NCBI RefSeq assembly: GCF_954871325.1
Contig: NC_088777.1
Span: forward strand, 51,584,002 to 51,648,001
Direction: 5' to 3'
DNA from: Gordionus sp. m RMFG-2023
Taxonomy: Eukaryota; Nematomorpha; Gordioida; Chordodea; Parachordodidae
DNA: 64,000 bases
Part shown: piece by piece, positions 6,721-45,479 of the stretch
Layout of the letters: every line of letters starts with the position of its first letter
Position numbering within the stretch: position 1 is the first letter of the stretch
Translations under genes and position numbers: made by a program
The notes under the pieces: model-generated
What the model was told of the DNA's origin: nothing
Database searches by the model: none
What the model saw: the letters and a program-made list of their open reading frames with translations, nothing else

Positions 6721-7477
6721 TAAGAACTATTATATATCTACTTTAAAAAAATTTATCACAGGCAATGCTACAAACCTAAATCGGAAATATTCAAGTATAT
6801 CATCATAATACAAAAAAATAATCCACCTTAAATAATTTTATAGTAAGACCTTATAATTTGAATTAAATCAAGCATTCTTATTTTTAAGGAACATTTTAAA
6901 AATAAAAATAATAATTTGGAGATACGTTCCTTAGTTATCACGCGATAAAATAAAAATACACCTTAACCTTTTAAGATAACAATTGATATTTAATTTAAAC
7001 TAATTCATGGGATATCTTGCTTTACATGGTTCTGTTAAAAGGTAGTCAGGGAATAAGACAACATATATAAAAAAGTTATAGGGATATTTTATTTTTAATA
7101 ATATTAAAATTTTAAACTACTATATCTAACAAGTTTCACGTATATTATATATATATATGTTATAAAATTGATTGGTTCAATTTAACAATTCTTTTTTATT
7201 TTTACAAACATTTATTCAATAAGTTAATATAAAATAAATGATTAACAATCAATCATTTATCAATAGGATAATAATAATATTATAATGTAAAATAAATAAT
7301 TAGGATATTTTACGGTAAATAGAATATATTAACAGGGTTCCACAAAAATAATTTTATCATTCTTGTTTATGCTGAATGTCGCGTCTTGAAATTTATTTAG
7401 ATCAAAAATATATTATCTTTCATACCCTTGGACTGCGAAATTGAAAAAAAAAAATTCATTTAAAAATTTCATATTTA

Positions 7478-8608: not shown

Positions 8609-8632
8609 TAAAGTTTCCAACAAGATATTTAG
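8609..8632 (+). CDS. Micro-exon 1 (24 nt)
   Basis: Acceptor TTATTACAG, donor GTATAC. Phase 1-1, encodes VKFPTRYLG (first and last residues split across junctions). Confidence 0.65.
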
Positions 8633-11600
8633 GTATACGATCATGTTTATTACATAAATTTAACATTAAAGAATATATCCTGGATATTATTATTATTAGA
8701 TCACAATGTGTTAATCATTATTTGTTGATAAAAAAAAATGATTTCAAAATCGTTTCTTGTGCTTGCTTGCTATAATTCATTTAGTTATTCTTGTAATTAT
8801 AAGATCAAAAAAATTACTTTCATTTTTAAATAATTTTATTTATAATGTTATTTCTAGTAAAAAATATATGCTTGAAATTTTATTACCAGATAACGCCACA
8901 AATACAAGAACCATAACCGAAAAACCTAAACATTCAGGTATATTATTATATGCATAAACTACAGGTTAATCCAAAATGCCTAAAGGGAGGGGATGCCAGC
9001 ATTATTCATAAGTCGTTATGGCTCGTAGCTCCCTAAGTTTGTAAATTATATCAGAGCTATGTTTGGACTTTCTTATTGCCATCTAATTGAGCTTTAAAAT
9101 AAAGTTTGGGGATTACCTTATATAGATCATCCATAATTTTCTACAGGCTCAATACCTGTGGGTAACAAGATACAAACAACTTACTTAAACCCTCTCAGGA
9201 AGTAAGAAAATATAAGAGGGGCCCCTGCTTGTTTTTAAAAAAATTTTTCGATTATGAGAGGACTAGAGAAAAGGCATGGTTCAAACTGTCTTTACAGGTA
9301 GGAAAGAACGTCATTCAAGCTGTTAACCACTCATTAAATCGAGCTTAGCTGTACTGTAGTTACATTCTAATTATTAGAACAATCCCACGTCTCTCTTTCG
9401 GACGTCCTAAGAATAAATAGCCTTATACCAAATCCACTGATAGACAGGATTCATTTTAATATAATATTACATTTTGGCCAATTACCAATTACTTATAATC
9501 TATAAAAATCCTAGGCTTCAAAAAGTAAACACTTTAGAGGCGATACAAAATAAATTTTTAAATATAATCATGGTTTCCTTTTTGGAAACAAAATTAACTA
9601 TTCTATAATTTTATTTTTGATATTCCCATAGTTTACAATTATTTTATATATTATATTTTAATTAAGATATTATTTTTTTATAAAAATACTTTAATAAAAT
9701 TAATTATATTCAAAAATAAGATATGTCTGAATAAATAAAAAAAATGCGCTACTAAAAATACATGCGCTTACTATCATCTACATAGTTATTCTTGTAATTA
9801 TTAGATTACACATTATTAATTATGAAATGTATAATACTTAAGATTTTATTACGGGCAACGCTACAACCACAACCCCAGCCAACACAACTGGAAAACCTAA
9901 CCATTCAGGTAAATCATGATATGCATAAATTAAAAGTTAATCCAAAATATTTTTTATAGTCGTAAGTCTGTATTTTAGTGTGCCTTCTTAAGTGTTAAAA
10001 ATTTACAGCAAGGTTACATTTGTATTTTCTAACATTTAGTTAAGTTAGTTAAAATTAGGGATTATTCTATGAAGGGAGGTCATCCGCAATTTTTCTGCTG
10101 GCTTCAGTATCTCTCTCCAGAGACAAGCAACTTACTCAAACGCCCACAGGAAGTAAGAAAATGTCTAATTAACAATCGCGCTACTTAGCACGATCAAATT
10201 ATTGTTATTATTAGATTCAAAAAAATAAATCGCCTAATTTAAAAAATTATTAGATTTATAATGAAATTTTAAAATTACAATTATTATAACCCGGAAATTT
10301 TATTATAGTATAAGTACGATATCGCATGGTAGCCTGATACTATCATAAAACTGATAAATTTTATGTTGTTCAATATAATATGATCTTAGATGAAGTAAAT
10401 TATAGATTCAGAATAAATGTAGGATCTATTTTCTGGAGATGATATACAAGTAAAACTTAGTAATAGGCGATGATTTAAATATCAACTCCTTTTTTGATTA
10501 TGTTTAGTTTTCATTTAAATCTTTTTCGTTATATTTTTTTTGTTTTTCATAGATTTCCCTAAAATATGTCATTGTGATAATTTCATGATGCAACTTATTA
10601 AAGATATAAAATCAAAGAATGGTTCAATTTTGAGCTTTAAATGGGAAGATGACAATAACACCAATTTTTTAACAAGTATATATTATAATTGTTTGTATTA
10701 ATAACCATTACCAAATCATAATTTTCAATAAAAATATTCAAGTGTATAAATTTCCAATAAGGAAAAATTTTATTATAAGAATTATTAGAATCATTTAAAT
10801 ATTAGTAACAAAATTACAATTATCACAATCTAGCCGGGAGTCAAAATATTTAGCTAAACATTTTTTATTTTATAAATAGAATTCTTCGCTCATATTTTAA
10901 ATATATAAAGGAATTTACATGCGTTTCTATATATTATTAAAATATACAAAATTAATTAATATTTTTCCGAGATATGGTCAAATAAATTTTATTAAATAAG
11001 GACAAAATATTCACCCAATTAGAATTATACCCAAAATATATATTATTGAAGAATTTTATAAAGTGTATAATTTCTTTCTTTTATTTATTTCTTTCTTTTT
11101 TTCTTTCTTTCTTTATTTATTTCTTATTAAAAATGTAAACCAATCTTCTTTTCTTGTATTTGTCTAAGTTTCTATTGTTCTCTGTATTAGTTTCTAATTT
11201 CCAAACTCTGGAATCCAAATCTTCATTAGTTAAATGGTAAAATGCGAGGATATCATCAGTAGGCTGTCTAAATGCTTTTCATTTGGATTGTTAATTTTAG
11301 AGGTTTGATATATTTTTTTAACAGTCTCTTGGACCAATGATTGATGACCAATAAATAGGGATTGAAATCAGTGACTGACAATTTCATAAACAAATAATTC
11401 TTATGATTACTAGAATCAATTGTCTAGTTAATCTATATTGGAGAAAACTCTACGCCCAGCTATTATTTTTTAAATAGATTAAATAGTCAAAATAGTTTGT
11501 ATTTTTTGAAATTTAATAAAGAAACAGGTTATTTAATTTTGGATGAATATTTTGCTTTCATTTAATAACATTTAATGTATCATGTTCTCAGACATTATAT

Positions 11601-14600
11601 TAATTAATTTTTGAATTACTTTCATATTATCTATAACTAAGATACTTTAGATATAAATAACAAATAAACCATAAAACGCGACTAAAATTTAGGGGAAAAA
11701 ATATTTAAGTGTTATATAGCGGGTAAACATGTCTTGAGCTAATTATTTTTTTACTCCTAGTAGTAATATTATTAAATGATTAAATAACCGAATGCTTTAT
11801 TTACAGTAAAGATAAATGTTTCTATCGGAAAACCTCAAAATTTAGGTATATCATGATGATTTATTGATAATTATAAACTAAATAAAATTAAATATATTTA
11901 AAGTAGTTTATTCACCAACTACCTATTATATTCTCGTTTTTATTAAATCAAAAAATTGTCTACTCTTAAAAAAAAAATCTTGATTTATAATGTAATCCCA
12001 TCCAACCCCAAGTTATTTATGTGAAGCCTTTCAAGCAGATTTTATATATGATAATAGTTTTATTTTAAAAAATTTTTAGTCTTATATTTTATTTTGTATT
12101 TATAAAATTCCATACGCTATAATAATTTGCTGTTACATTTTTTTTATATTTACCTATAATAATTCATTATTTTAAGAATAGTTTAATAAATATGATAAGT
12201 GGAATAATAAATGCACGAAAATAAATAATGATAAAATGAGAGATAATCAACTAGAGAATCCTTCTATACCTCGAATTTTCAGTCTATACGACTACAATTT
12301 CTAAGAAGCTTTAAATGTAAGTGATAATAATGTTGCTTGCAAGGTATAGTTCATGAAGGGAATACTTTGGCTGCTTAAATTGAGAAATAAAAATTCCATT
12401 CCAGAGGATAGATACTCTGACATTTTTATCTTCTTTAAACGCGTTATTTCCAGGGAACTTGCTCTGGTTTCTGTTTTCTTTGTTCCTTCTTTGATGTCTT
12501 ACTTAACCTTATAACTTTTTAACTGTCGTTTATTTTGTATTTTGTTTATCGATCATTTAAGCAACTAAAGTTAAAATAGGCATTGCGCGAAAATAAATGA
12601 TATTCATGTATGGCAAATAATTATATAAACTACAGAATCGCTATAAGATCCCAAAATATTAGTAAAATCAACATACCTTTAATCCCAACTCCTGGTATTA
12701 TTATTCTGTTTATGGGAAAAATATCGAAACTTGGAAATGTTTGACAGTCTTAAACTAATCTTTAAAATGGTTATTTTAGTACGATGCTATTCCTGTAAAG
12801 CTAAATCAAAAATGTTAATTTTCAAAAACAATTGATTTATAATGTAATCATTAATCACGATATATTAATTAATTACAAAATATAATAATGAAAATATTAG
12901 GAAACCCCCCATGCCCTCAACCTCAGCACCCAGGTATATTATTATAATATTTCTTTTATTTATTTGATAATCTAAACTCAAATAGTCCGTGCAATGCTTT
13001 TATAAAAATGTGCCATTCTTGGTTGCTAAAACAAGAAAATGCTGATTCTAAAATAATTTCATTAATGTAATCACCATATAAATTTACAAATAATAAAATA
13101 TAACAAAGAAAATAGTAAGAAACCACTACACTACTCTCTCACCTTTAAGTTTCAGCGTAAAGGAATAGCATATCGATAATAAATGAAAATTATTTGGGCT
13201 ATTAAATAAAATAAATTCGAAAAGAAAATAGTTAATGATAATCGAATGCAAATATTATTGTCCGATGCTCTATTATGTAATTATGATATACTAATTAGCA
13301 AATAATTTGATACAAAATAGTATGACGAAAGGGGAAAATGGCTTATCCGGGTACACTTAGAAACGGGTCACTAAAAGGAAAAGGTAAACACTACTTACTA
13401 TCTTTCAATCTCAACGCCCACATAATAAATGTTAAATTTTTAAAAAATATTTGATAGGTTAAAAACTAAAATTGAAAACTTTATTAACATATTATTATTT
13501 TATTTAAAAAAACGGGTAAATTCTATGATAAAGTAATTAATATATAGAATAAAATTTAATAAAAAAAATACTAAATTACTTTAAAAACATAAAATATATG
13601 AAAGCCTTATTGTTTGTAAGATCAAAAAGAAATTTTAAATAGTTTATTAATAAATAAATAAAGATAAATAACTAATTTTAATAATCATTGCACTCCCTCA
13701 ACCTCCAGTTTATTGATAAATTCCAAATGGGTCTAGAATAATTTAGTAGTCGACAACATTATTCTAAAAAAAAATTTTTTTTTTAAAACAACGTTATTGT
13801 ATTAGACAATTAGTTTTGTACTAAGTATTTCCTTATATATTGGGATATGTTCTATTTTCAGTGGTTAGTAGAGATCTCAGTAGTGTAGTTAACTTGCTCT
13901 ATTTGAGCAGATTTTTTTAAAAAGGCCTGATGATTTTGCTCAATTTATGAAATGTTATATGCATTCCCCTGATATTTCCATAAGTTTCAATATAATGCTT
14001 TTAACCCCATAGTCTCAATCAAATCGAAGTTATATTTTTTTTTTGAAAATATGTTACTTTTATTTTCGCAGTGAAAAAGTTTAGAAAATGATTGTGTAGG
14101 AATATTTTAAAATGATATTTAAGTAATAACGCCAAGGAAAATTTGAAATGGATATTAATTCATATAATAAATTTAGTAGCGTATTTTTTTCTGCTGTTAA
14201 TGTGATAATTAAATATAATAAAATTTAAGCAACCACCCCTCCATCTCCAAGTATTTAATTGTATTTTATTGATAAATAATTAGGTTTAAGATTATTTTAA
14301 AGGCTCTAAACAAATCAATCAAAAAAAAAATCTTATGGTCAAAATATTGTGGCAGATCAAAAATTGTTGATTTTAAAATAATTTTAGATATAGCAAATAA
14401 TACACTCCCTCAACCTCAACACTCAGGTATATTATATTATATGATAGATAAAAATAAATGTTGATTTTGAAAATTGAATAGTAATATAATAAAAATAAAT
14501 TAATTAGCAAATTATATAACTAGAATTGTAGTAAATACTCCATCAACCTCACTCACATTATCTTTTTTGATAATTCTTTTAAAATTGAAGTTTTTAACTA

Positions 14601-17600
14601 AATAAATTTTCATAAAAATGCTATTTAGATGCTAATCATGTTATCGTTGTATCATAAATAATTACATTTATAATCTTAAAATCAACATCCATATTTATTA
14701 ATAAATTCAAAAATTTGATTAAAATTATTTGGAATTCTTAAATTAAATTATTTTGATAAGAAATTATTCAATATAGTCATGCAATTTGATTTTTGCACGT
14801 TGCTACTATATTTATTGCTGCATCAAAGAGATTTATATTTTTTAAATAATTGGAATATTATATTAATAAGCTATAGATTAAATGTAATAATGAAAATTTA
14901 AGTAACATCACAGCCTAAATGCCCAAGTATAGTATCATGTTTATTTATATTCAAAACTTATTTGAATTTTTTTTTCTCTTTAGCTTTCACCATTTCTGGT
15001 GGTAAGCTCCTTTAACATCTCTCTCCACTTTATGTTATTCATATAATCGCTTTTATCTAATTTATACTTCTTTATATTGGCTCTAACTTTATGGCCCCAT
15101 TGAAGTTTTGGCCTCTTTTACGTTTGCCCATCACTTCCAAACTCTCAACCTTATTTCCTATGTAGTTCATAAGCTTTCTCATTGTGTGCCCATACCACCT
15201 AAGTCTGTTTACCATTAACTTAGTCTTAATGGGCACTACCTTTAAACTACTTAGTATTCTTGTACCGCGCACTTTATCCTTTCTTGTTACCCCAGCAATC
15301 ATCCTCAGTATTCTCATCTCCATAGTTTGTAGACTTCTCTTTTCTAATTCTTTGGTTGACCATGTTTCCGAACTATATAGAATAGTTGGTTGTACTATGG
15401 AACTGTAAATTTTTCCCTTTAATTAATAGCACTCCAGATAAAGATCTCCACTTTAACCACCCTTGATTAATCTTACTCTTTATCTCTCTTTCTATTGTGC
15501 CGTTTTGTATAGTGGAGCCCAAATATTTGCAGCTTTCAATTTCCGATATCTGCCATTCATTTATATTAATACTCTCTGTTTCATCTCCTCCTATCACCAT
15601 ATACTCCGTCTTTTCTCTATTTACTTTTATCCTACTCACTAATCTTTCTTTCATTTCATCCTTAGATTCAGCAAGTATCACAATATCATCTGCAAATATC
15701 ATATTCCACGGGACTGTTTGAGGTATAGACTGTGCTAATACATCTATGTAATGAAGAGAAGTGAGCTGAGAGCCGACCCTTGATGAACTCCTTCGGCTAT
15801 CGTGAAGCCTGCTGAAGTACCTGTTGTGCTACCGACCATTGTTGGCCCATATACATATCCTGTATTATTCTTATATATTTTTCGGGAACATTTTTGTGGC
15901 GTAGCGCCCACCAGATAAGTTTTCTTGGAATTCTATCAAAGGCTTTTTCTAGATCGAGAAAGACATGTGTAGCCTTTTGTTCTTTTCCCTGTATTTTTCA
16001 CTCATTTGCCTAATTGCGTGGATAGCATCGGTTGTTGATCTTCCAGGCATAAAGCCAAGAGTCTCTCCTATTTTGATTATATCTCTTAATCATTTTTTCT
16101 ATTTTTTTTCGTATAGTTTTAGACAGTGTGACATTAGTTTTGAACCCCTGTAATTTTGACAATTGTGTGGATCCCCTTTATTTTTGAAGATAGGAACTAG
16201 ATAGCTCTGCCTCCATTTTTGGGGGACCTCTTCATTTCCAAGTATTTTATTGTACAGATTTGTGAGGAGAGGTCCATCATCTCTTAGTGCTTTAAGGTTT
16301 TCTATTGGAATATCGTCTGGACCCCTAGCTTTGTTGTTTTTCATATGCTTGAGGCATGTGATTATTTCTTGTTCTGTTATAGGTTGTACAAGGTTTTGAC
16401 ATGGTGAGTGTTCGTCTAGATGTAGTATGTGGAGATTAAAGTTGAGAAGCTCTTGAAAAAATTCTTTCCATCTATTCATTATTTCTTTTTCCTTCATCAT
16501 CAATTTCCCATCTTTATTTTTGATTACTTTCAGAGCTCCGTTTATATCCCTAGAGTTCTTTTCTCGCTGTTTGGCTAATCTGTATATTTTATTTTGCCCT
16601 CCTTTGGTATGTAGATCTTCGTACATGTCATCGTATGCCATAGATTTGGTTCTAGCCACCGCTTTTGTAGCTAATCTCTTGGATTTTTTGTATCTTGTCT
16701 TGTCATCTGCGTTTTTGGATTTGTACCATATTTTATATAGGGCCTTTTTCTTCTTTATAGTAATTTTTACTTCTTCATTCCACCACCATAGTTCTTTGTA
16801 TGATTTGTTGCCTCCCCTTGTCAAGCCTAGTGTCGATTTGGCAGTGTCTATTAATCTGGATGAAAGGTTTGCCCACATTTTTTCACTGACTTGTGAGGTA
16901 TTTATTGTTTCAATGTTTGCATTGATTGCAAAGGCATCTGTCATTGTTTTTAATTTGCCCCATTTGATGCATGGTTCCAGTTTTATCTTATTTTGAGTGG
17001 ATTTATTTGAGATGCGTAAATCCATGCCTAGTAACTTGTGTTGTGCGGCGATATCTTTTCCTGGGATGACTTTGCAGTCTATTACATCTTTTAATCTTCT
17101 GCGAGAGATTAGAATGTAATCTATCTGTGTTTTCCTTGTACCACTTTCGTATGTTATTAAATGACTGTCTTTTTTCCTATAGTAAGTGTTGATTAAGGCA
17201 AGGTCAAAGTTTCATTCTTTTTCTTTCTAAAGCAAAAAATTCACAAAAGTTTTTCATTCTATCAAATAATTTTGGACATTGGCGAAAATTTCAGTACGTG
17301 CTCTCCTTCATCATTTCTTTCTCCATATCCAAAACCACCATGATGCCTTTTGTAGCTATCTCTTGCTTTCCCCACATGCGCATTTAAGTCACCACCAATT
17401 ATGACTAGGTCATCCTTAGGAATTTCCAATACAGCTTCATCAAGGATAGCTCTAAAGTCATCTTTCTCTGTATCCTTGCAACCCGTTTGAGGAGCATATA
17501 CTGAAAGGATGTGCAGTATTGATTGACCAATGCAGAGTTTTATCTTCATTAGTCTATCAGAGATCCTGTTGACTTCTACTACTTAGGAGTTTAGATCTTG

Positions 17601-20600
17601 ACTGAGGATGATGCCGACACCGTTCCTATTGATAACAATTCCATTATAGTAAAATTTATACCCATCTCCAATCTTCAAAGTCTTCTGTCCTTTCCATTTC
17701 GTCTCTTGTATGCACGCTATATCAATTTTTCACTTGTTCAACATTGATTCCAATTCTCTCGTCTTACCTTTAAACGTCCCAATATTCAAACTTGCTAATT
17801 TTGTCTTCTTTGCTTTGACCATGAAGGTCTACACCCTGCGCGTCGCTTGGAGGGAACCTTCTAGCTTTCATATTTATATTTCCATTTTTTTCCTTCATTT
17901 TGTTTATTGGACAGGTATCCTTAGCACCCGGCTGTCCAGGCCTGTCGGTGACCTGGGTATCATCTCTAAGCTCCGAAATTCACCATATTATATGGTTTTA
18001 CACATCAGTCAGTGGCGTAGCTAGGAATTTTCCTTAGAGGGGGTCCATACATATAAAATCTGGTTTCGCCCCCCAGACCCCCTTTAACGGGCCTTCGGCC
18101 CTATTGCCCGGCCTTCGGCCGAGTTTATCTTACAAATCATAACCATATCTTCGATAATATATAATAAATATATTTTTTAAATGCATCAATAATATGTTAT
18201 TATAGTTTAGTAGATTATTCTTAATGACTTTATAATAATTCTATCAAGAATAATTTCTATAGTAATATAATATCCTTCCACAAACATCAAAACCAGAAAA
18301 ATATAATTCATATAAAATCACTTTTAAGTCTTTTGAACGTATAATCTCAAAAAAAATTTTGTTCTGGGAGGGGTCCAAATCCGAAAACCACTCCCGTAGT
18401 TACGCCACTGACATCAGTCATCGAAGACCTGCGTTTTTGTTCGCTCATCTGTTTCCAAACATACATCTAACCCATTAGGCCACCTCGGCGATTCAAAACA
18501 TATTTGAAATAGTCTTAAATAATGTTTTGTCCCAAATATCAAAAAATAAATTTGTACACTCGAAACTATAATAAAAAATAAATAAATCCGCTATTTTAAA
18601 TCAATAAATAAAAACATGTCCAAAATATAATTCCAGAAAATTTCAGAAATTTGCGAAGGATTAAAAACTTTTCTAGTCTTAAAAAAGATTTTATACATAC
18701 CCCAAACAAAATAAATTTAAATATAAAACTATTCAAATTTGTCAATAAGATGTTATTTTAAAAATATTGACTGTTATGTAATTCTAAATATGATGTCAAG
18801 TTAATATTTTATATGGCAAATTAACATAATAACGAAATTTAATTAACCACTCCAATCTGGCCGCATCTCCATTTTTTAAATAAAATTAATTTTTTTGAAG
18901 ATTATTTTGTTCATTAACATAATAAATCTAAAAAAAAACTGCAAACAATGTTTTGTTGATAATGCTACTTTTGATATTGATAAATCAAAAATTATTAATA
19001 ATTTAGACAACAATATTATAGTGAAAATAGTATAAAAAATATTTATTCACTAAACCTTAACCCTCGAGACATATTTTTGTATATAGATAATTCTAAACTT
19101 TTCAAAAATTATTTGGGAGTGGTTAAATCAATTTAAAAAAAAAAATACTAATCAAAATACTTAATTATTCAATGCACCATACTATTACAAGATCAAAAAA
19201 TGGAGATTTTTAAAATGATGTCGATATATTATTTAGCAATAAAATATAATAACAAAATTATAGTAACTTCAATCCTTCAATCTCCATATTTTTTTTCGTA
19301 ATGTTTATAGAAAATTAAATTTTTTTTTAAAGATATGTTATGTAATTACTAATTCTGATATTGATAGATCAAAAAAATTTAATTAGATAATAATATATTA
19401 GTGAAAATAGTAATGAACCATAGATTCGCTTAAACCACCTAAGCGAAATTTAGTTTAATGATAATTCGAAACTTATTTAAATTATTTGGAAAAATTAATT
19501 ATTAATTATACTTATCTTTTATCTATAATGTGATATTATTGTTGCACTATACTATTGCAAGATCAAAAATTGATGATTGTTTACATTCATTATATCATGT
19601 CGATAATTATTTAACAATATAATATAAAAAAATTGTAGTAACCTCTAGCCCTCAATCTTCAGGTTCTTTTCTTAATGCTTAATGTTTATAGAAAATTAAT
19701 TTTTTTTAAGATATGTTATTGTTGTAATACTACTACTTGATATTGGTAGATCAAAAAATATTAGATAATAATATATTAGGGAAAATAGTAATAAAATCAT
19801 ATATTCAATTAAACTACGAGGCATTGTTTTTTTTTTATAATTCATAAAAGAAATTTATCAAAAAGCTCAATATTATTATTGCAATATACTATTGCAAGAA
19901 TATTAAAAGGTGTATTGTTAAATTATTTAATATATGATGTCAAATATATAATCTAGAAATATAATATATTAATGAAATTGTAGCAACCACTTCAGTTCCT
20001 CAATCCTCTGGTATATTTTATTTGTTTTGCGTTATTATTGCAATACTTTTGATATTGGTAGATCAAAAAATATTAGATAATAGGAAAATAGTAATAAAAT
20101 CATATATTCAATTAAACTACGAGGCATTGTTTTTTTTATAATTCATAAAATAAATTTATCAAAAAGCTCAATATTATTATTGCAATATACTATTGCAAGA
20201 ATATTAAAAGGTGTATTGTTAAATTATTTAATATATTATGCCAAATATATAATGTAGAAATATAATATATTAATGAAATTGTAGCAACCACTTCAGTTCC
20301 TCAATCCTCTGGTATATTTTATTTGTTTTGCGTTATTATTGCAATACTTTTGATATTGATAGATCAAAAATTTAGATAATAATATAATAGGAAAAATTGT
20401 AATAAATCATAAATTCACCTAATCTTAACAGCCGAAGCAAATTTTGTTTATTGATAAATCGAAGCTTGTTTAAAATTATTTGAGAGTCGTTAAACTAATT
20501 TAAAAAGTAACTTATTAAAATGCTCAACATTATTGTTGGTTGTACTCTACTATTGCAAAATATTATAATGCATATTGTTAAATTATTTTATATGTGATTA

Positions 20601-23600
20601 CGATTTATTATTTAGTAATATAATATGATAAAATTGTAGTAACTTCATGCCCTCAATCAGGTTATTTATTAATGTTTATTGAAAATTTTGTTTAAGATAC
20701 GTCATTGTTGCACTATGTTACTTTTTATATTGATAGAACCTATAAATAATTAATTAGATAAATAAATAATAGGGAAAATAGATATAAACCATATATTCAC
20801 TATTTTGAATTCGATACTTGTTTAAAATGATTTAGGAGTGTTTAAATTTAATTTAAAAAGAAACTTATCAAAATGCTCAATATTATTGTCGCACTATACT
20901 ATTGCAAAATATTATAATGAGTGTTGTTAAATTATTTAATATATGATGCCGATATATTATTGTGCAATATAATGTAATAACAAAATTATAGTAACTTCAT
21001 GCCCTCATTCAGGTTGTTATTAATGTTTACTGAAAATGAAATTTGTCTAAGATGAGTTATTATTATAATGCTATTGTGTTATTGATATATCAAAAAATAT
21101 TAATTAATTATTAATTAATAGGATAATATTATAATAGGGAAATTAGTAATAGACCATATTATCACATAACCGTGACCATCGAGGCATATTTAGTTTATTA
21201 TTGATTCGAATTGTTTAAAATTGTGTTGCAGTGGTTAATTATTTTTTTTTTAACTTGTCAGTATGTTATATCATTGCTAATGCAAGATCAAAAAATTGTG
21301 GTTAAATTGCTTAATATATTATGTCGATATAATATTTAGAAATACAATATATTAATGAAATTGTAGCAACGACCTCAGCCCCTCAATCTCCAAGTATATT
21401 ATTATGATTAATACATTTGTTAAAGATATGTCATTATTGCATTATGCAACTTTTGATATTGATAGAACAAAAAAATAAAAATTATTTAGATAATAATATA
21501 ATAGGGAAAATAGTAGCAAACCATATATTCACTTAATCAAAACAACCGAGGCATATTTTGTTTATTGATAATCTGAAATTTGTTTAGAATTATTTGAGAG
21601 TGGTTAAATTATTTATTTAAAAAGTAACTTATCAAAATGATCAATGTTATATTTGTACTATACTATTGCAAGATCAAAAAATGTGTATTGTTAAATTATA
21701 TAATATATAACATGTCGATATATTATTTGGAAATATAATATATTAATGAAATTGTAGCAACGACCTCAGCAGTCATTCAATCTCCAGGTATATTATTATG
21801 TATTGCTACTTTTGATATTGATATATCAAAAAATATTAATTAATTAGATAATAATTTTATACAGAAATTAGTTTCAAACCATATATTCACTTAAACTAAA
21901 CCGCCGAAGCACATTTTGTTTATAATTTGAAACTTGTTTAATTTGGGAATAGTTAACTTAATTGAATTAGTTATTTATCAGAAGACTAAATATAATATTA
22001 AAGTTTCACTAAACTATTGCAAGATATAATGTGTATTATTAAATTATTTAATATATAATGGCAATATATTTATTAATATAATATATTAACAAAATTATAG
22101 TAACTTCATGCCCTCAATCAGGTTTTTTTTTATTATGTTTATTGAAAATTAAATTTGTTTAAGATAAGTTATTATTTTAATATTACTTTTGATATTTATA
22201 GATCAAAAATAATTAATTAATTTAATAATAATATAAAAAGGAAAATAATAATAAATCATATATTCAATCCAAAGCATATTTTGTTTATTGATAATTTGAA
22301 AGTGTTTAAATTAATTTAAAGAGAAGCTAATCAAAATGTTCAATGCAAAACATTAAACTATTGCAAGATATTATAATGTGTATTGTTAAATTATTAAATA
22401 TATGATGCCGATATATTATAATATAATAACAAAATTGTAGTAACTTCATGCCCTCATTCTCAAGGTTTTTAAAAAAATGTTTACTAAAAATTAAATTTGT
22501 TTAAGATATGTTATAATTGCACATGATAGATCAAAAGATATAAATTAATTAGATATTAATATAATAGGGAAAATTTTCGTTTAATCTTAATCGAGGCATA
22601 TTTTGTTCATTGATAATTGAAAAATTGTTTAAAATTATTTTATAAAGAAACTTGTCAGTGTTAAATATCATTGTTTCACTATATTATTGCAGGATCAAAA
22701 AATTGTTTATTGTTAAATTGTTTAATATATGATGTCGATAAATTATTTAGAAATATAATATATTATTGATATTGTAGCAACGACCTCAGTCCCTCAATCT
22801 TCAAGTATAATATTATACTTAATACATTTGTTTAAGATATGTTATTCTAGCACTAAGCTATTTGTGATATTGATAGAATAAAAATAAATAAATCAATTAG
22901 ATAATAATATAATAGAGAAAATAGTAATAAATATATATTCACTTAATCAAAACAACCGAGGCATATTTTGTTTATTCATATTTCGAAACTTGTTTAAAAT
23001 TATTTTGTAATGGTTAAATTATTTTATAAAGAAACTTGTCAGTGTTAAATATCATTGTTTCACTATATTATTGCAGGATCAAAAAATTGTTCATTGTTAA
23101 ATTGTTTAATATATGATGTCGATAAATTATTTAGAAATATAATATATTATTGAAATTGTAGCAACGACCTCAGTACCTCAATCTCCAAGTATAATATTAT
23201 ACTTAATACATCTGTTTAAGATATGTTATTCTTGCGCTAAGCTACTAGTGATATTGATAGAATAAAAATAAATAAATCAATTAGATAATAATATAATAGA
23301 GAAAATAGTAATAAACCATATATTTACTTAATCAAAACAACCGAGGCATATTTTGTTTATTGATATTTCGAAACTTGTTTAAATGGAATGGTTAAATTAT
23401 TTTATAAAGAAACTTGTCAGAGTTAAATATCATTGTTTCACTATATTATTGCAGGATCAAAAAATTGTTTAATATATGATGTCGATAAATTATTTAGAAA
23501 TATAATATATTATTGAAATTGTAGCAACGACCTCAGTCCCTCAATCTCCAAGTATAATAATATACTTAATACATCTGTTTAAGATATGTTATTCTTGCGC

Positions 23601-26600
23601 TAAGCTACTTGTGATATTGATATAATAAAAATAAATAAATCAATTAGATAATAATATAATAGAGAAAATAGTAATAAACCATATATTCACTTAATCAAAA
23701 CAACCGAGGCATATTTTATTTATTGATATTTCGTAACTTGTTTAAAATTATATGGGAGTGGTTAAATTAATTTAAAAAGAAACTAATCAAAATGTTCGCA
23801 ACTATACTATTGCAAGATATTATAATGTGATTAATATATGATTGCGATTTATTATATAGCAATATATTATAATAAAATTTTAGTAACTTCAATCCCTCAA
23901 TCTCCAGGTTTTTTCTATGATTATTAAAAATTAAATTTATTTATGATATATTATTATTGGGCAATGCTACTTTTGATATTGATAGATTAAAAAAATTTAA
24001 ATAATTAGAAAATAATATAATAGGGAAAATAGTAATAGAGCATATTATCACAAATCTTAACCATCGAGCCATATTTTGTTTATTGATAATACAAAACTTG
24101 TTTAAAATTATTTGGGAGTGGTAAAATTATTTAAAAGAAATATCAAGATTATTTTTATTATTGTTGTACTACACTATTGCAGGATCAAAAAAAATGTGTG
24201 TTGTTAAATTATATATTATGTGATGTCGTTATATTATTTAGAAATATAATATATTATTGAAATTGTAGCAACGACCTCAGCCCCTCAATCTCCATGTATA
24301 TCATTATGTTAATTTAAAATTACATTTAAGTTATGTTATTGTTGAGCAATGCTACTTTTTTATTGATAAATCCAAAAATAATATAATAGGGAAAATAGCA
24401 ATAAACAATATATCCATTTAACCTCGACCATCGAGGCATATTTTGCATATTGATAATTCAAAACAATTTTTATTTGGAAGTGGTTAAATTATTTAAAAAG
24501 AAACTTATCTAAATGATCAATATTATATTTATATTATACTTGTTGCATCAAAAAATGCGTATTGTTAAATTATATAATATATAACATGTCGATAAATTTT
24601 TTGGAAATATAATAACCTTTATCAAACACCAACCAACCCCTACAACCTTTATGCCCATTCTTTCCTTTCATATTTAAAATCCTTATCTTTACAACATCAT
24701 TATTCTCTATAGCTTACTCTCTGTCACATCCCCATTCATTACACAATTATTCACATCCTCTCCTTATCCACATAATGGTACACTGTCCAGCATGCTCTAA
24801 AAACATAAAAATCACCAAACCCGGTCTCTTCACCAAACATAAAACTAATGGCATCGTTTGTCCTGAGTCCGGGAAGCGTCCTTCCCCTCCCTTCCTAAAT
24901 CCCCTTTCCATTTTTTCTACTCACAGCCATTCTTCCACTTCATCTAACAATGCCCACACAACAACTACATCAGACACATTTATTACTCTCCAAGCTACCA
25001 CCCATGGCGACATAATCAACTTCCTAAAATCTGACAAACCTCCCATTATCTCTAGAATTCCTAAAGGCTCCAGAGTACAAGTAGCCAAAGCCCCCTCCAC
25101 ATGCTCAATCATTATTAAATAACTTTCTCTCTCGATCATTGGCTCAAGCTCTTCACATTTTCCTTCACGATTCTCCAACGTCCCAATCCAGAGATTAAGA
25201 AATCTTTAACCCAACAAATCAAAGAGGCAACCTTACATCCCCTCACCCTCACAACCACAACATCTTCTCATGAACCCAAAAAACTCTCCAGATTACAATT
25301 AAAGGTAAAGTTAATTACCAACAAAATTAACAACTTAAACATCAAATCCGCTCTTCCCTTAGTAGCATCTGATGATTCATTTGCCACTAGCAACGAAGAA
25401 AGTTTCAACAAACTCAAACTTAAGCACCCCTCCGGAGTTGATTTCATACCTCCACCTCCTCCCAATATTTTTCCCTCTAATTTCACCCCCGCCGAGGTGC
25501 GTTAATCTATTCTATCTTCCCATCACGACTCTTCTCCCGGTTGCGATGGGCTTCGTCCCATCTTCCTCCAGGATCTCACATCCCCTCTCATAGTCAGCCA
25601 AGTCCCAATTTTACAAAATTTAGCAACATTTTGTGACAAAATAGCAGACCACTCTTTTTCGGTGCTAAACTAATAGCACTCGAAAAACCCAATAAGGATA
25701 TCTGCCCAATAGCAATCGGAACCGTATTTCACCGTCTTGTCGTTAAACGAATATCTTCCAAAATTAAGGACAACGCGGCCTTCATATTAGCACCTCGCCA
25801 ACTAGAAATCGGCATCCAAGGTTGGCTGCGAAAAAGCCACACACGCTACTTGTATTGATCTCCAAACCAACCCAAGTAACGAAATCCTCGTTAAAATTGA
25901 TTGCTCTAAGGCCTTCAACTCCATTCGCTGCTCTCACTTTCTCCAGCAAAAGTACCACTTATTCCCCACCTTTTCTCAATTCTACCATTCCTGCTATTCC
26001 AAGCCATCTCATCTCCAATTAAACAACTATTTACTTTCATCATCTGAAGGGATTCAACAAGGCGATCCTTTGGGATCGATACATTTCTGCATTGGAATTA
26101 ATGAAATGGTCAAAAATCCAACTCAATCTCCCACTGCATACTTGGTACATCGATGACGGTTTTGCGATCCCCCTAACGAGATTGCTAAGGCACTCACCAT
26201 CATAAAACACATTCCCATGCTATCGGTCTCTCACTCAACGAACAAAAAACTGAGATCTGCCCATTTCATTGATCTCCTATTCAATCACAACTTTCACACA
26301 ACAGAACTCTCATCCATCTCGGCTCTCCAGTCGGTGGCCTGGAATCCATCAATCACTTCTTCACTAACGCATCATCCAGCTTATTTCATTTCAAAAACAT
26401 CTCTAAGTTTCTCACTACTCATCAAGTTTTTTTTCTCTTCAAAAACTTTTATTACATTCTTAAAATTCTCTATGCCCTTCAATCCACTTCAATTTTTAAA
26501 TTCCCCGACTCATTAAAATCTTTTAAAATCTCCGTCAAATTTCTCGCCGAAGAGATCCTTAATCTCCGCTTTAACCATAATTCATGGTTCACTTCCATGC

Positions 26601-29401
26601 AAGCTCGGGGGTATCGGCTTACACTCACCTCTAACTTTTCCATCAGTGGTTTCCTAGCCTTTCGTCTTTCATCTGACTCACCAATTAGTTAACTTTTCCT
26701 GACCCCTTATTAGCTGAAGCCCAGGTTGTCCCAAATGCTCCACGACCCTCCTCATGTTCACAGAGAGACTGGGATATTCCACTCAACGAAGGCTCCGTCG
26801 CTTACCTAAAATCGGGCCTATACGACGACGATCTGATAGTTTTTCGCCTATTGAACCAAGGATCTGGTTACGAGTTTCTGGAAACCATACCCTCCAACAA
26901 TCTCGATTTGTTGCTCTCCGCTGACGAGCTAAGATTTACTATTGGACTACGGCTCAATTGCGAAATTGTTCTTCCGTACCAATGCAAACATTGCGAAACC
27001 AGTGTCGACAGCAAGAGTAGACACTGTCTCTATTGTCGCGGCCGTTTTTCACGGCACACCAAATGCAATGACATCATTTTACGCGCCCTCAAATCAGGAG
27101 GCATTCTTCTAGACTAGAACCAACCGGAATTTTTTGAACCGATGGAAAACGTCCTGATGGAATGTCCTTGATCCCCTGGTCAAGGGGTCAACTACTGGTT
27201 TGGGACTTCACCTGCATTGACACAAATGCACCATCTAACCATACCGTCGATGCCCTCGTCCTCGTAGAATCCTGGAAAACCATAATGTACAGTTCCTTAG
27301 ACCCCTCTTTCTTATTCATACCTATCGCCTGCTCCATTCTCACCACCTTCGGTAGCAAAGCCCAACGTTTTTTCAAAGAATTAGGCAAACGGATCCGTGA
27401 AAAAACCGATCAGCCTAAGGAATCCCTCTTCTTACGCCAAAAACTTGCTACCGCCACCATTCGCTCTAACTATCTAAGCTTCATCTTTTCCATTGAATAA
27501 CCTCCCATTCTCCAAGCTTCCTTTTTTTTTTATACTCCATCCTTTCTCGTAAATTCTATTTCTATATTTTTCACCTTTATTTATTTTACCTTTTTAAAAA
27601 ATTAATTATTTACTACTACATTTTGACAACATATCATATCAGTAAATATTCAAATAAAGTAACCCATGACCGAAAAAAAATATATATTAATGAAATTGTA
27701 GCAACGACCTCAGAGGTCACTCAATCTCCAGGTATATTATTATGTTTATTTATAATTACATTTGTTTAAGATATGTTATTATAACCCAATGCTACTTTTG
27801 ATATTGATATATCAATAAATATTAATTAATTAGATAATAATATTATAAAAAAATTAGTATTAAACCATATATTCATTTAACTTAAACCACTGAGGCATAT
27901 TTTGTTGATAATTCGAAACTTGCTTAAAATTATTAATGAATGGTTAAATTAATCTAAAATGATACTAATCAAAAGGATCAATCAATATTAAAGTTGCACT
28001 ATACTATTATTGCTTGCAAGATCAAAAAATGTTGATTGTTAAATTATTTAGATGTCGATATATTATTTAGCAATATAATATAATAACAAAATTGTAGTAA
28101 CTCCAATCTCTCAAATCTAGGGATTTTTTTAATTATTGAAAATTAAATTTGTTTAAGATATATTATTGTTGCTGGAAAATCAAAAAATATTGATTAATTA
28201 TATGTTATAATATAATATGGAAAATAATAATAAACCATAACCTAAATTATTTAAAATATTTTGGGAGTAGTTAAATTATTTTAAAAGAAACTTTTCAAAA
28301 TGATCAATAATATTGTTGTACTATACCATTGCAAGATCAAAAAAAAGTGTATTGTCAAATTATTTAATGTCCTTGCATGTTTTTAGAAATAATTTATTAA
28401 TATTGTAGTAACGACCCCAGTCTCTCAACCTCCAGGTATATTATTACGTTTATTGAAAAATTACATTTGTTTAAGATATGTAATTTTTCCATTACTTTTG
28501 ATATTGATCAAAAAAATATTAATCAATTAGATATTAATTTAATAGGGAAAATAGTAGTTAAACAATATACTCCCTCAACCTCAATCGTATTTTTTATATA
28601 AAATATTTAGTATTTAAATTAATATAAAAAATTAACCTTTCTAAATGCATGTGCACAATACTATTGTAAGATTAAAAAATATAAATAATTCAATATATGA
28701 TGTCAATATAGGATACTCGTCAGATTTTAAAACTAGCAAATATGCTAACCTACCAGATGAATATAAATTTATATCAGTTGCAGCCAGGCGCTTACCCTAA
28801 ATAGAATGCTTGGCAGAAACATAGGATTAAATCCAGTGGTACGAAAAATGACGTTTACTTACACCAGCGCTTAGAAATTTCGATTATAAAATCTAATTTC
28901 ATAGGCTTCATGAGTTCCTTTCCGGAGTAGCTTGATGATTTTGATCTTTTCCTCCTTCCCTTCATTGTTTAATCTTCTCTATTTCTCTCAAATTATTATA
29001 CACATATAATCTTTTTTGAATACTAATTTCTGTATTATAAATTTTGACTTCATATATTTTATGAAGTTTAAAATTTTTACCTTTAACATAATTCTAAATA
29101 ATAAGTATTGTCGTTTCAATGCTTTAATCATTCAGAATCTCCTTTAATTTATTATTATTATAAACATGTATAAATACATAATACACCTACACCCTCATAG
29201 TCTTAAAACTTTAAATTCATAATTATTAGACTAATCAAAAAAGTTTATACATTGTTATTTTTGCAAAGATACTACTTTTGTTTGTACAAATAAATGTTGA
29301 TCTTTAAATAATATTCAATACATTATGTCTATATATTATTTAGCAATATATAATTTAATAACAAAATTTAGCAACCACTTCACTCCCTCCTCAATCTTCA
29401 A
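8609..29401 (+). CDS. Micro-exon array gene, Thr/Ser/Pro/Gln-rich product
   Basis: Twenty-four exons of 21, 24, 27, 30, 33, 39 or 48 nt can be read on the + strand. Each is preceded by an AG acceptor (often ATTGTAG) and followed by a GT donor (mostly GTATAT, GTATAA or GTTTTT). All lengths are multiples of three and all enter and leave in phase 1, so any subset can be skipped without breaking the frame. Spliced together they total 663 nt with no stop. The typical unit reads TTSAPQSPG. Exons from 19639 onward lie in a tandem repeat of about 300-400 bp, so exon and intron were amplified together. Decayed units with lost splice sites lie between good ones. I recognise no protein family; the composition suggests a secreted, possibly O-glycosylated mucin-like region. 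The 5' exon is uncertain (7478?), and the 3' exons may be those at 40422-41597. Transcription is inferred, not shown. Confidence 0.75.
8890..8937 (+). CDS. Micro-exon 2 (48 nt), the longest
   Basis: Acceptor TTATTACCAG, donor GTATAT. Phase 1-1, encodes [17 protein letters not shown]. The ATNT motif recurs in the exons of both secreted paralogues downstream. A decayed homologue is at 9855-9908. Confidence 0.7.
9855..9908 (+). pseudogene. Decayed micro-exon, acceptor AG lost
   Basis: Homologous to micro-exon 2 and still 54 nt in frame ([19 protein letters not shown]), with a good GTAAAT donor. The acceptor that reads ACCAG in micro-exon 2 reads ACGG here, so the AG is gone. It is probably skipped. 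Confidence 0.6.
10123..10152 (+). CDS. Possible extra micro-exon (30 nt)
   Basis: A pyrimidine-rich acceptor (CTCTCTCCAGAG) precedes 30 nt encoding [10 protein letters not shown], followed by the strong donor GTAAGA. Phase 1-1. The sequence family differs from the others, and a related stretch near 9170-9215 does not keep the frame, so confidence is lower. Confidence 0.35.
11060..11125. repeat. Imperfect TTTC/TTTA microsatellite
   Basis: A short degenerate tetranucleotide tract of TTTC and TTTA units. Confidence 0.8.
11807..11845 (+). CDS. Micro-exon 3 (39 nt)
   Basis: Acceptor TTATTTACAG, donor GTATAT. Phase 1-1, encodes [14 protein letters not shown]. It shares the GKP segment with the 9855 relic. 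Confidence 0.65.
12901..12933 (+). CDS. Micro-exon 4 (33 nt)
   Basis: Acceptor AATATTAG, donor GTATAT. Phase 1-1, encodes [12 protein letters not shown]. Rich in Pro, with one Cys. Confidence 0.65.
13120..13149 (+). pseudogene. Decayed micro-exon
   Basis: Resembles the family (acceptor AATAGTAAG, then a Thr/Thr/Leu/Ser-type reading), but no GT follows at a phase-preserving position. Confidence 0.4.
13687..13708 (+). pseudogene. Decayed micro-exon
   Basis: CACTCCCTCAACCTCCAG matches the core of micro-exons 6 and 23. The acceptor AG is missing and the donor reads CAGTTTATT. Confidence 0.45.
14230..14250 (+). CDS. Micro-exon 5 (21 nt)
   Basis: Acceptor AATTTAAG, donor GTATTT. Phase 1-1, encodes ATTPPSP plus a split codon. 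It ends in A rather than the usual G. Confidence 0.6.
14394..14426 (+). CDS. Micro-exon 6 (33 nt)
   Basis: Acceptor AGATATAG, donor GTATAT. Phase 1-1, encodes [12 protein letters not shown]. Confidence 0.68.
14532..14561 (+). pseudogene. Decayed micro-exon, donor lost
   Basis: A good acceptor (AATTGTAG) and a family-like Asn/Thr/Pro/Ser/Thr reading, but no GT donor follows. Confidence 0.45.
14903..14926 (+). CDS. Micro-exon 7 (24 nt)
   Basis: Acceptor AATTTAAG, donor GTATAG. Phase 1-1, encodes VTSQPKCP plus a split codon. It is the last micro-exon before the RTE insertion. Confidence 0.58.
15072..15702 (-). pseudogene. RTE reverse transcriptase, palm to C-terminus, broken
   Basis: The catalytic motif [11 protein letters not shown] begins this part, followed by the KTEYM and CKYLGS segments typical of RTE-clade and related LINEs. 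The frame then breaks near 15373-15420. The C-terminal piece (15072-15323) has the family's [13 protein letters not shown] region and a basic GKRKRGQ run. In the family this domain copies the element's RNA at the nicked target. The break and later stops mean no activity. Confidence 0.88.
16099..17025 (-). pseudogene. RTE linker and N-terminal reverse transcriptase
   Basis: An open stretch of 308 codons. The N-terminal two-thirds is the Lys-rich linker between endonuclease and RT. The end holds RT motifs, including [16 protein letters not shown] and [18 protein letters not shown], the start of the fingers domain. The frame is lost just after QNYRG. Fragments of the rest (fingers/palm, FMPGRST equivalents) can be read in other frames down to about 15720. 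Confidence 0.88.
17262..17822 (-). pseudogene. RTE APE-type endonuclease domain, broken
   Basis: From the ATG at 17822 the minus strand reads [20 protein letters not shown], then [20 protein letters not shown] and GGDLNAHVG. These are the metal-binding Glu and the Asp/Asn motifs of the exonuclease-endonuclease-phosphatase fold that LINEs use to nick target DNA. In-frame stops lie near residues 31 and 74. The frame degrades after HVLKFSPM. Confidence 0.88.
18010..18410. mobile_element. hAT-type MITE nested in the RTE leader
   Basis: A 401-bp element with terminal inverted repeats CAGTGGCGTAGCTAGG and CAGTGGCGTAACTACGG (right end, reversed). The exact 8-bp target duplication ACATCAGT is at 18002-18009 and 18411-18418. 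It has no coding capacity. It is younger than the RTE copy it interrupts. Confidence 0.93.
18845..18871 (+). pseudogene. Decayed micro-exon
   Basis: ACCACTCCAATCTGGCCGCA followed by TCTCCA aligns with the family, but neither the AG acceptor nor the GT donor survives. Confidence 0.4.
19264..19290 (+). pseudogene. Decayed micro-exon, donor lost
   Basis: Acceptor AAATTATAG is intact and the exon body matches micro-exon 20, but the end reads TCCATATTTT with no GT at the donor position. Confidence 0.5.
19639..19662 (+). CDS. Micro-exon 8 (24 nt)
   Basis: Acceptor AATTGTAG, donor GTTCTT. Phase 1-1, encodes VTSSPQSSG. Confidence 0.65.
19984..20010 (+). CDS. Micro-exon 9 (27 nt)
   Basis: Acceptor ATTGTAG, donor GTATAT. 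Phase 1-1, encodes [10 protein letters not shown]. Confidence 0.7.
20285..20311 (+). CDS. Micro-exon 10 (27 nt)
   Basis: Identical to micro-exon 9, with the same acceptor and donor; a product of the 301-bp duplication. Confidence 0.7.
20640..20660 (+). CDS. Micro-exon 11 (21 nt)
   Basis: Acceptor AATTGTAG, donor GTTATT. Phase 1-1, encodes VTSCPQSG. Two codons shorter than the 27-nt form, and it contains a Cys. Confidence 0.65.
20992..21012 (+). CDS. Micro-exon 12 (21 nt)
   Basis: Acceptor AATTATAG, donor GTTGTT. Phase 1-1, encodes VTSCPHSG. Confidence 0.63.
21367..21393 (+). CDS. Micro-exon 13 (27 nt)
   Basis: Acceptor ATTGTAG, donor GTATAT. Phase 1-1, encodes ATTSAPQSP plus a split codon. 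Confidence 0.7.
21758..21787 (+). CDS. Micro-exon 14 (30 nt)
   Basis: Acceptor ATTGTAG, donor GTATAT. Phase 1-1, encodes [11 protein letters not shown]. It has one codon more than micro-exon 13, so the length change kept the frame. Confidence 0.7.
22101..22121 (+). CDS. Micro-exon 15 (21 nt)
   Basis: Acceptor AATTATAG, donor GTTTTT. Same sequence as micro-exon 11, VTSCPQSG. Confidence 0.63.
22441..22464 (+). CDS. Micro-exon 16 (24 nt)
   Basis: Acceptor AATTGTAG, donor GTTTTT. Phase 1-1, encodes VTSCPHSQ plus a split codon. Confidence 0.65.
22778..22804 (+). CDS. Micro-exon 17 (27 nt)
   Basis: Acceptor ATTGTAG, donor GTATAA. Encodes ATTSVPQSS plus a split codon. Confidence 0.68.
23162..23188 (+). 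CDS. Micro-exon 18 (27 nt)
   Basis: Acceptor ATTGTAG, donor GTATAA. Encodes ATTSVPQSP plus a split codon. Confidence 0.68.
23525..23551 (+). CDS. Micro-exon 19 (27 nt)
   Basis: Acceptor ATTGTAG, donor GTATAA. Encodes ATTSVPQSP plus a split codon. Nearly identical to micro-exon 18 and its flanks. Confidence 0.68.
23884..23907 (+). CDS. Micro-exon 20 (24 nt)
   Basis: Acceptor TTTTAG, donor GTTTTT. Encodes VTSIPQSPG. Confidence 0.65.
24269..24295 (+). CDS. Micro-exon 21 (27 nt)
   Basis: Acceptor ATTGTAG, donor GTATAT. Encodes ATTSAPQSP plus a split codon. The last exonic base is T rather than G or A, which weakens the donor and would give Ser or Leu at the next junction. Confidence 0.6.
24775..25122 (+). 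pseudogene. Retrotransposon N-terminal part with Cys/His finger
   Basis: The ATG opens [13 protein letters not shown], with CPAC, then [15 protein letters not shown]. The Cys-x2-Cys...His...Cys spacing suggests a nucleic-acid-binding finger, as found at the N-terminus of many LINEs with restriction-like endonucleases. A Ser/Thr-rich linker follows, and the frame stops at 25122. The continuation to the RT lies in other frames. Confidence 0.7.
25268..26240 (+). pseudogene. Retrotransposon reverse transcriptase, broken
   Basis: Read across several frames: [13 protein letters not shown] and [16 protein letters not shown] (fingers), [20 protein letters not shown] (motif 2 region), [10 protein letters not shown] (motif A with the catalytic Asp), [15 protein letters not shown] (motif B) and WYIDDGF (motif C, catalytic YIDD at 26146-26157). 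Catalytic residues are present, but the frame changes at least four times. It is a dead copy. Confidence 0.85.
26851..27500 (+). pseudogene. Retrotransposon Cys/His motif and endonuclease-like region
   Basis: 26851-27117 reads [19 protein letters not shown], then [20 protein letters not shown], a Cys/His motif followed by the RHxxxND segment seen downstream of RT in this group. 27162-27500 reads [20 protein letters not shown], preceded by DGKRPDG behind a stop. The RPD and D residues would be catalytic in a PD-(D/E)XK fold. The endonuclease assignment is inferred from family knowledge. Confidence 0.75.
27702..27731 (+). CDS. Micro-exon 22 (30 nt)
   Basis: Acceptor ATTGTAG, donor GTATAT. Encodes [11 protein letters not shown]. 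First exon after the inserted retrotransposon. Confidence 0.7.
28098..28121 (+). pseudogene. Decayed micro-exon, donor lost
   Basis: Acceptor ATTGTAG is intact, but the end reads CTAGGGATTTT with no GT. Confidence 0.5.
28409..28435 (+). CDS. Micro-exon 23 (27 nt)
   Basis: Acceptor ATTGTAG, donor GTATAT. Encodes [10 protein letters not shown]. Confidence 0.68.
28558..28586 (+). pseudogene. Decayed micro-exon, frame lost
   Basis: AG acceptor and GTATTT donor flank 29 nt, which breaks the multiple-of-three rule kept by every intact unit. Confidence 0.4.
28720..29010 (-). other. Coding-like minus-strand stretch, unidentified
   Basis: The minus strand reads [20 protein letters not shown] and then a stop. 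A strong GTAAGT donor-like site follows. The stretch is less AT-rich than its flanks. It could be a retroelement scrap or an isolated exon; no family was recognised. Confidence 0.25.
29372..29401 (+). CDS. Micro-exon 24 (30 nt)
   Basis: Acceptor AATTTAG, donor GTATAT. Encodes [10 protein letters not shown] plus a split codon. Last intact unit seen. Confidence 0.65.

Positions 29402-42435: not shown

Positions 42436-42614
<179 letters not shown>

Positions 42615-45351: not shown

Positions 45352-45479
<128 letters not shown>

Follow-up and report, generated by a model that had tools for sequence, protein, structure and literature searches.

Schistosome micro-exon genes (MEGs) encode secreted proteins and are described as having a signal-peptide exon, long introns, and coding exons that are mostly very short and mostly a multiple of three nucleotides (3n) in length, with a few exceptions (PMC10526429, excerpts). 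The bicycle and megacycle genes of aphids have many small internal exons, almost all of which, in bicycle genes, begin at codon position 2; they are secreted and fast evolving, and the megacycle genes are internally duplicated (PMC9168663, excerpts), while the bicycle proteins are reported to adopt a saposin-like fold (PMC13041983, excerpts). Effector genes of the grape phylloxera form tandem families with high dN/dS, in which exon duplications give motif repeats (PMC7376646, excerpts). A literature search for micro-exon genes in hairworms, covering titles and abstract openings and few subscription papers, gave nothing among the matches listed.

Judged from its DNA, the gene described here, gene A, resembles both the schistosome MEGs and the aphid bicycle genes, and is filed in neither group. 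Like MEGs, it has very short 3n coding exons and long introns, and its first exon may encode a signal peptide; unlike theirs, its exons are mostly 21 to 48 nt, form one tandem array of near-copies, encode Thr/Ser/Pro/Gln peptides, and are joined to longer Cys exons, in another phylum and with no MEG motif read. Like bicycle and megacycle genes, it evolves fast, is internally duplicated, and has small internal exons beginning at codon position 2, but its repeat unit is one exon of 7 to 11 codons rather than a domain, and the animal group differs. Gene A also has a tandem gene family and duplicated exons, as the phylloxera effectors do, whereas most genes of that phylloxera cluster are intronless and gene A is intron-rich.

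Gene A occupies positions 2659-41597 on the plus strand of the window, the whole 64,000-nucleotide stretch analyzed, with the micro-exon array as its middle part. We interpret it, with a probability of roughly 0.8, as one nematomorph protein-coding gene comprising a signal-peptide exon, about 27 micro-exons of phase 1-1, and a Cys-containing C-terminal part, its array having arisen by tandem exon-plus-intron duplication. Genomic comparisons document a structure common to gene A and a whole-gene paralogue, a constrained reading frame, the birth and death of units, and related micro-exons in other family members. The model has 33 exons and 1386 coding nt, spanning 38.9 kb; 27 of the 33 exons are 21 to 48 nt long and 3n, the introns range from 68 to 11020 nt, and codon position 2 is the start of all 31 internal exons. 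The original prediction had placed the feature at 8609..29401; the gene extends beyond that range on both sides, and a 123-nt exon inside it (10553-10675) had been overlooked. The exons outside the array proper are as follows, with lengths in the co-linear paralogue P3 where available.

2659..2713 (+): exon 1, signal-peptide-like, with a hydrophobic start judged by eye; MFFHSILLLTMAFIGLSQ / G, donor phase 1; one 6-nt in-frame indel relative to P3
5698..5733 (+): micro-exon m2, 36 nt; alternative 5707-5733, 27 nt, via a second AG; 36 nt in P3 with the acceptor at a different place
6762..6794 (+): micro-exon m3, 33 nt; P3 counterpart not aligned
8609..8632 (+): micro-exon m4, 24 nt; 24 nt in P3
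8890..8937 (+): micro-exon m5, 48 nt; 45 nt in P3
10553..10675 (+): exon C0, 123 nt, Cys-containing; 138 nt in P3
11807..11845 (+): micro-exon m7, 39 nt; 39 nt in P3
40422..40493 (+): exon CxC, 72 nt, Cys-containing, DSQCACLATNTCSKNK...; 69 nt in P3, 72 nt in gene B
40958..41080 (+): exon RC, 123 nt, Cys-containing, ...RRCFTRPTVGDISCSATYF...
41149..41330 (+): exon IRL, 182 nt, Cys-containing; phase 1 in, 0 out
41532..41597 (+): last exon, stop-bearing, LTKLTNAIKGAKVNYEIAYGN and stop

Sequence reading and a script identified 25 candidate micro-exons within 8609-29401, each with AG before and GT after, one more than the 24 originally counted; their lengths (21, 24, 27, 30, 33, 39, and 48 nt) were the very set predicted, and all 25 are 3n and phase 1-1, as had been claimed. 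Three of them are m4, m5, and m7; the other 22, at 12901-29401, make up the array proper.

12901..12933 (+): array micro-exon, 33 nt
13116..13148 (+): array micro-exon, 33 nt, donor ambiguous
14230..14250 (+): array micro-exon, 21 nt, ATTPPSP
14394..14426 (+): array micro-exon, 33 nt
14903..14926 (+): array micro-exon, 24 nt, VTSQPKCP
19639..19662 (+): array micro-exon, 24 nt, VTSSPQSS
19984..20010 (+): array micro-exon, 27 nt, ATTSVPQSS
20285..20311 (+): array micro-exon, 27 nt, ATTSVPQSS; recent duplicate of 19984
20640..20660 (+): array micro-exon, 21 nt, VTSCPQS
20992..21012 (+): array micro-exon, 21 nt, VTSCPHS
21367..21393 (+): array micro-exon, 27 nt, ATTSAPQSP
21758..21787 (+): array micro-exon, 30 nt
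22101..22121 (+): array micro-exon, 21 nt, VTSCPQS
22441..22464 (+): array micro-exon, 24 nt, VTSCPHSQ
22778..22804 (+): array micro-exon, 27 nt, ATTSVPQSS
23162..23188 (+): array micro-exon, 27 nt, ATTSVPQSP
23525..23551 (+): array micro-exon, 27 nt, ATTSVPQSP
23884..23907 (+): array micro-exon, 24 nt, VTSIPQSP
24269..24295 (+): array micro-exon, 27 nt, ATTSAPQSP
27702..27731 (+): array micro-exon, 30 nt
28409..28435 (+): array micro-exon, 27 nt, VTTPVSQPP; matches the array-type unit of P3
29372..29401 (+): array micro-exon, 30 nt
12663..12694 (+): exon-like unit, not 3n, with AG and GT, 32 nt, phase-1 stop; probably dead
28555 (or 28558)..28586 (+): exon-like unit, not 3n, with AG and GT, 32 or 29 nt
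29619 (or 29622)..29658 (+): exon-like unit, not 3n, with AG and GT, 40 or 37 nt

The candidates were chosen as having both splice sites, and the last three units, which are not 3n, were excluded from the 22. Counting them, 3n lengths are found in 22 of the 25 array units that keep both sites, so the original statement that no intact unit breaks the multiple-of-three rule goes too far: it fits the candidates and not these three. For units of the main type the proportion is 19 of 19, with lengths of 27 nt in eight, 21 in four, 24 in four, and 30 in three; a splice site has been lost in four further main-type units and in about 18 half-units (by eye). Read in phase 1, none of the 22 array exons contains a stop, compared with nine in phase 0 and three in phase 2, and eight other internal exons (IRL left out) gave 0, 7, and 4, respectively. 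The claim that no unit creates a stop is thus borne out for the array, and for m4, m5, and m7, with the excluded unit at 12663-12694 as the exception. Intron lengths vary freely, as had been noted, from 143 to 4712 nt inside the array with insertions counted. The peptides encoded by the micro-exons are Thr/Ser/Pro-rich, again as predicted (S 22%, P 19%, and T 18% of 195 residues).

The commonest repeat, by reading, is about 300 to 380 bases and consists of one live exon and one dead half-unit, the latter often having a GC donor instead of GT and containing stops. Intron divergence between nearest neighbors among the array units ranges from 1% to 35%, which argues for duplication that has been long-running and in places recent; 19984/20285 and 22778/23162/23525 are recent duplicates. 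The array would thus have grown as an exon-plus-intron unit duplicated in tandem, units being born through duplication and dying when they lose a splice site. Since the donor of exon 1 is phase 1 and every kept unit is 3n and 1-1, any number of units would leave the frame intact; gain, loss, or skipping of a unit would alter only the length of the Thr/Ser/Pro-rich part that separates the signal peptide from the C-terminal Cys exons. We infer splicing of these exons, secretion of the protein, and, as the original prediction did in proposing isoforms made by exon skipping, inclusion that varies between transcripts. The predicted product is a secreted protein with a variable-length, Thr/Ser/Pro-rich, perhaps O-glycosylated stretch ahead of a Cys-bonded domain, the length of the stretch being set by array size and perhaps also by exon inclusion. 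Introns of the array contain retroelement-like open frames at 15072-17211 (-) and 24616-27500 (+), of which the latter lies immediately before exon 27702; these stretches (~15.0-18.0 kb on the minus strand and 24.6-27.6 kb on the plus strand) were named by resemblance, and the two frames scanned against Pfam gave no match above the cut-off. At 9879-9908 there is an m5-like unit in which CGG replaces the acceptor CAG; an internal AG would give an in-frame 30-nt exon.

When array copies are aligned with one another, 65 of 78 gaps within exons are 3n, compared with 91 of 368 in the flanking introns, the direction expected by the original prediction from an exon-versus-intron comparison of 3n indels. 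These counts come from 120 dependent pairs among 16 of the 19 main-type units (14230, 14903, and 29372 were left out), with exon ends aligned in 80 of the 120, and by our reading represent some six independent length changes; the 13 exon gaps that are not 3n are attributed to alignment. The copies diverge by 0.26 in exons and 0.30 in introns.

P3 is a co-linear whole-gene paralogue at C3:51542988-51553749, on contig C3, and its last exon lies 33 kb upstream of the first exon of gene A. BLASTN blocks between P3 and window positions 2308-42441 fall in the same order, with gaps, and 11 exons are common to both genes, with an open frame, AG, and GT in each. Because P3 shares order, exons, and frame, we take positions 2659-41597 to be one gene, on the strength of this alignment. 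Downstream of C0, the live micro-exons of P3 number two, m7 and an array-type one, and a third unit has lost its donor; gene A has m7 and the array at the place where P3 has its two live units.

The nonzero differences in exon length between gene A and P3 are 6, 3, 15, 3, and 9 nt, all 3n in net terms, compared with 52 of 208 gaps in introns. Within exons the alignment contains five gaps (3, 6, 12, 15, and 23 nt), four of them 3n, together with a 4-nt gap edging m5; we take the 23-nt gap, which is in the last exon, and the m5-edge gap for alignment faults, since exon lengths agree modulo three (the last exon is 66 nt in both). If exons gained indels as fast as introns do, about 14.1 frame-shifting ones should fall within the 768 aligned exon bases; the net lengths show none. 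Likewise, both genes have AG or GT at 20 splice dinucleotides. Rough neutral sums of 7e-7 for the indels and 3e-6 for the splice dinucleotides are too favorable, because the exons were chosen as open and flanked by AG and GT and because the m2 acceptors differ. Substitutions amount to 22.3% in exons and 27.1% in introns. Over 250 codons Ka/Ks comes to 0.99 (the signal peptide and micro-exons give 1.08, the longer exons 0.96). Taken together, the 3n net lengths and a Ka/Ks of about 1 argue, at the level of the alignment, that reading frame and splice sites are maintained, whereas the letters themselves change by drift or under positive pressure. Selection on the encoded peptide, as originally proposed, accordingly holds up for the frame, as the exon gaps indicate, and not for the letters, which are free.

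The genome searched comprises 287.06 Mb, with five large contigs of 93.7, 64.4, 54.6, 34.6, and 31.8 Mb and an N50 of 64.4 Mb. One compact paralogue, gene B, lies in the window itself.

50149..52547 (+): gene B, compact paralogue; exons 50149-50206 (signal-peptide-like), 50736-50807, 51106-51147, 51459-51578, 51670-51854, and 52476-52547

Its order is signal peptide, CxC, a 42-nt micro-exon (51106-51147), RC, IRL, and last exon; Ka/Ks is 0.45 between genes A and B over 160 codons and 0.71 between P3 and gene B. P1 and P2 (C3:51.52-51.54 Mb) have the same exon order, and no micro-exons were seen in them by reading; a micro-exon between their signal peptide and CxC was considered and dropped, candidate lengths being not 3n (by eye). 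In a further compact paralogue, P6 (C3:47.07 Mb), a PQ-rich stretch runs directly into the CxC exon (by reading).

Besides gene A, exon C0 has 10 copies, namely, P3, eight at C3:6.04-6.62 Mb, and one at C1:51.63 Mb, with no internal stops; m7 has 10 copies in all, eight of them at C3:6.04-6.62 Mb, and window positions 8500-9000, which contain m5, gave nine matches at C3:6.03-6.58 Mb. Four of the loci near 6 Mb on C3 were read. L053 and L055 each have four micro-exons ahead of C0 (33, 33, 30, and 33 nt), all 3n and phase 1, and L058, upstream of L053, has one more of 24 nt; no such micro-exon was found in the 1.5 kb before C0 at L054 and L057. Aligned with five units of the window, the family micro-exons have common ends and length differences that are multiples of 3. 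Between L053 and L055 the divergence is 2.4% in exons and 2.7% in introns; exons show no gaps, introns 17, of which 13 are not 3n. At least 186 places on C3 and C5 match DNA of the L053 array; many of the matches listed are on C5, where long arrays of related micro-exon units lie at 5.54, 6.93, 7.15-7.19, and 8.0 Mb, and 500 bases of one of these arrays hold three units of 33, 31, and 33 nt. The C0, RC, and IRL exons had no match on C5. A genome-wide dispersed repeat was considered as the source of the units and dropped for the form of the unit found in the window: unit DNA from 21230-21810 gave 23 matches, 20 in the window, two in P3, and one, of 60 bases, at C3:6.44 Mb.

Outside this family, the IRL exons of five members and the RC exon of gene B had no convincing relative in Pfam; PDB profile searches with the IRL and RC exons gave no match or weak ones only (E 0.2 and above), and a single exon (IRL) had none in a protein database whose coverage of such animals is uncertain. 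These results for the exons searched agree with the earlier description of an unrelated or highly diverged gene. As to the Cys-Tyr-Cys motifs of aphid bicycle genes, no Tyr lies between Cys pairs inside single exons of gene A, although such an arrangement across exons is possible.

The gene could be real and its array mostly unused, a tandem repeat in one long intron that amplified relics of a few exons and is spliced out. Exon and intron divergence between copies is indeed almost equal (0.26 versus 0.30), about 22 dead units (by eye) stand beside the live ones, three units that are not 3n retain both splice sites, and C5 carries similar arrays without C0, RC, or IRL matches, one of the three units read there being 31 nt. 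Such an unused repeat would nevertheless leave unexplained why 19 of 19 main-type units with both sites are 3n in four different lengths, why none of the 22 kept units has a phase-1 stop, and why 3n gaps are so much more frequent in exons (65 of 78) than in introns (91 of 368). We consider it unlikely, and give it what weight it has because the related unit of L053 has so many matches in C3 and C5. A different alternative accepts the gene and its splicing and makes the product structural or adhesive, as in cuticle, gland secretion, or egg string, with micro-exons that tune the length of a mucin-like linker and have no role toward the host. Thr/Ser/Pro-rich composition is suitable for O-glycosylated linkers, which fits this proposal, and no observation here links gene A to parasitism. 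Genes at the host interface often evolve fast and form tandem families, which tells weakly against it. The grape phylloxera effectors are an example (PMC7376646, excerpts). A structural product is a serious possibility, held at well under even odds; a role in the contact between the parasite and its arthropod host is a guess, and about as likely.

Descent from a known micro-exon family is much harder to sustain. The published structural classifier for bicycle genes (coefficients from PMC9168663, excerpts; threshold 0.72) scores gene A at p = 1.0, in keeping with the codon-position-2 start of its internal exons, and gives P3 0.006, gene B 0.001, and gene A reduced to one array unit 0.004. Since these members of the same family score low, the score of gene A rests on its array and not on descent; a structure-only classifier trained on bicycle genes that accepts gene A and rejects two paralogues indicates that exon phase and size by themselves are weak evidence of homology. 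The inverted repeats of a mitochondrial insert, described below, make the genome very probably neither aphid, phylloxeran, nor scale insect, and a diverged bicycle gene is highly improbable. Homology to schistosome MEGs, to which the signal-peptide-like exon, symmetrical micro-exons, and long introns would point, is scarcely credible: the hydrophobic and aromatic motif that follows the MEG signal peptide in the excerpts of PMC10526429 is absent from the translated m2 to m5 (by reading), and the phylum is different.

Returning to a nematomorph gene with a duplicated micro-exon array, we tentatively extend it, at somewhat less than even odds, to a superfamily that hairworms would have evolved independently of flatworms and aphids. 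Its phase-1 micro-exons might number in the hundreds, in tandem arrays spread over two or more chromosomes, and would serve at the arthropod-host interface as a secreted module that is combinatorial or tunable in length. If this is right, micro-exon genes gain a further origin in another parasite phylum, and micro-exon architecture is a recurrent solution rather than a schistosome or aphid oddity. The locus displays what may be stages in the making of such a gene, from compact (B, P1, P2, and P6) through intermediate (P3) to expanded (gene A), with live exons beside dead ones, and gene A supplies a concrete exon list to compare with hairworm RNA.

The identity of the animal was approached through nuclear mitochondrial inserts. 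One of them, L048, contains, next to the best COX1-like piece, perfect inverted repeats of 100 and 38 nt inside a nad1-like frame, which we take to be nad1, and of 47 nt after cox2; the inverted-repeat positions are 957-1253 and 4033-4143. Long inverted repeats in mitochondrial coding genes are described as exclusive to Nematomorpha (PMC10380579, excerpts), and we consider it very probable that the genome is that of a nematomorph. COX1-like nuclear pieces are read by the invertebrate mitochondrial code; the genome holds at least 48, and copies lie near both micro-exon gene clusters, at C3:51567734-51569042 and C3:6.107-6.123 Mb. An insect origin (grape phylloxera) was dropped on the COX1 pieces and the inverted repeats of the mitochondrial insert. 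A search for insect odorant receptors gave no matches, a weak result because the control likewise gave none, and the telomere repeat TTAGG had no matches, which is uninformative. The salivary-gland setting of the original prediction is a misfit, as the genome looks like that of a horsehair worm.

No RNA genes were found. Elsewhere in the window, long TTTC/AAGA tracts flank gene A on both sides (747-1016, 1434-1718, 1967-2095, 42436-42614, and 45352-45479), and such tracts also occur within P3 and ahead of P1. Positions 58502-59291 hold 25.5 copies of a 31-base tandem repeat with 93% matches. On the minus strand at 60433-61219 lie exons of a signal peptide peptidase-like gene; the exon near 60433 was assigned by reading only, and 60881-61219 matched Pfam Peptidase_A22B with an E value of 1.5e-8.
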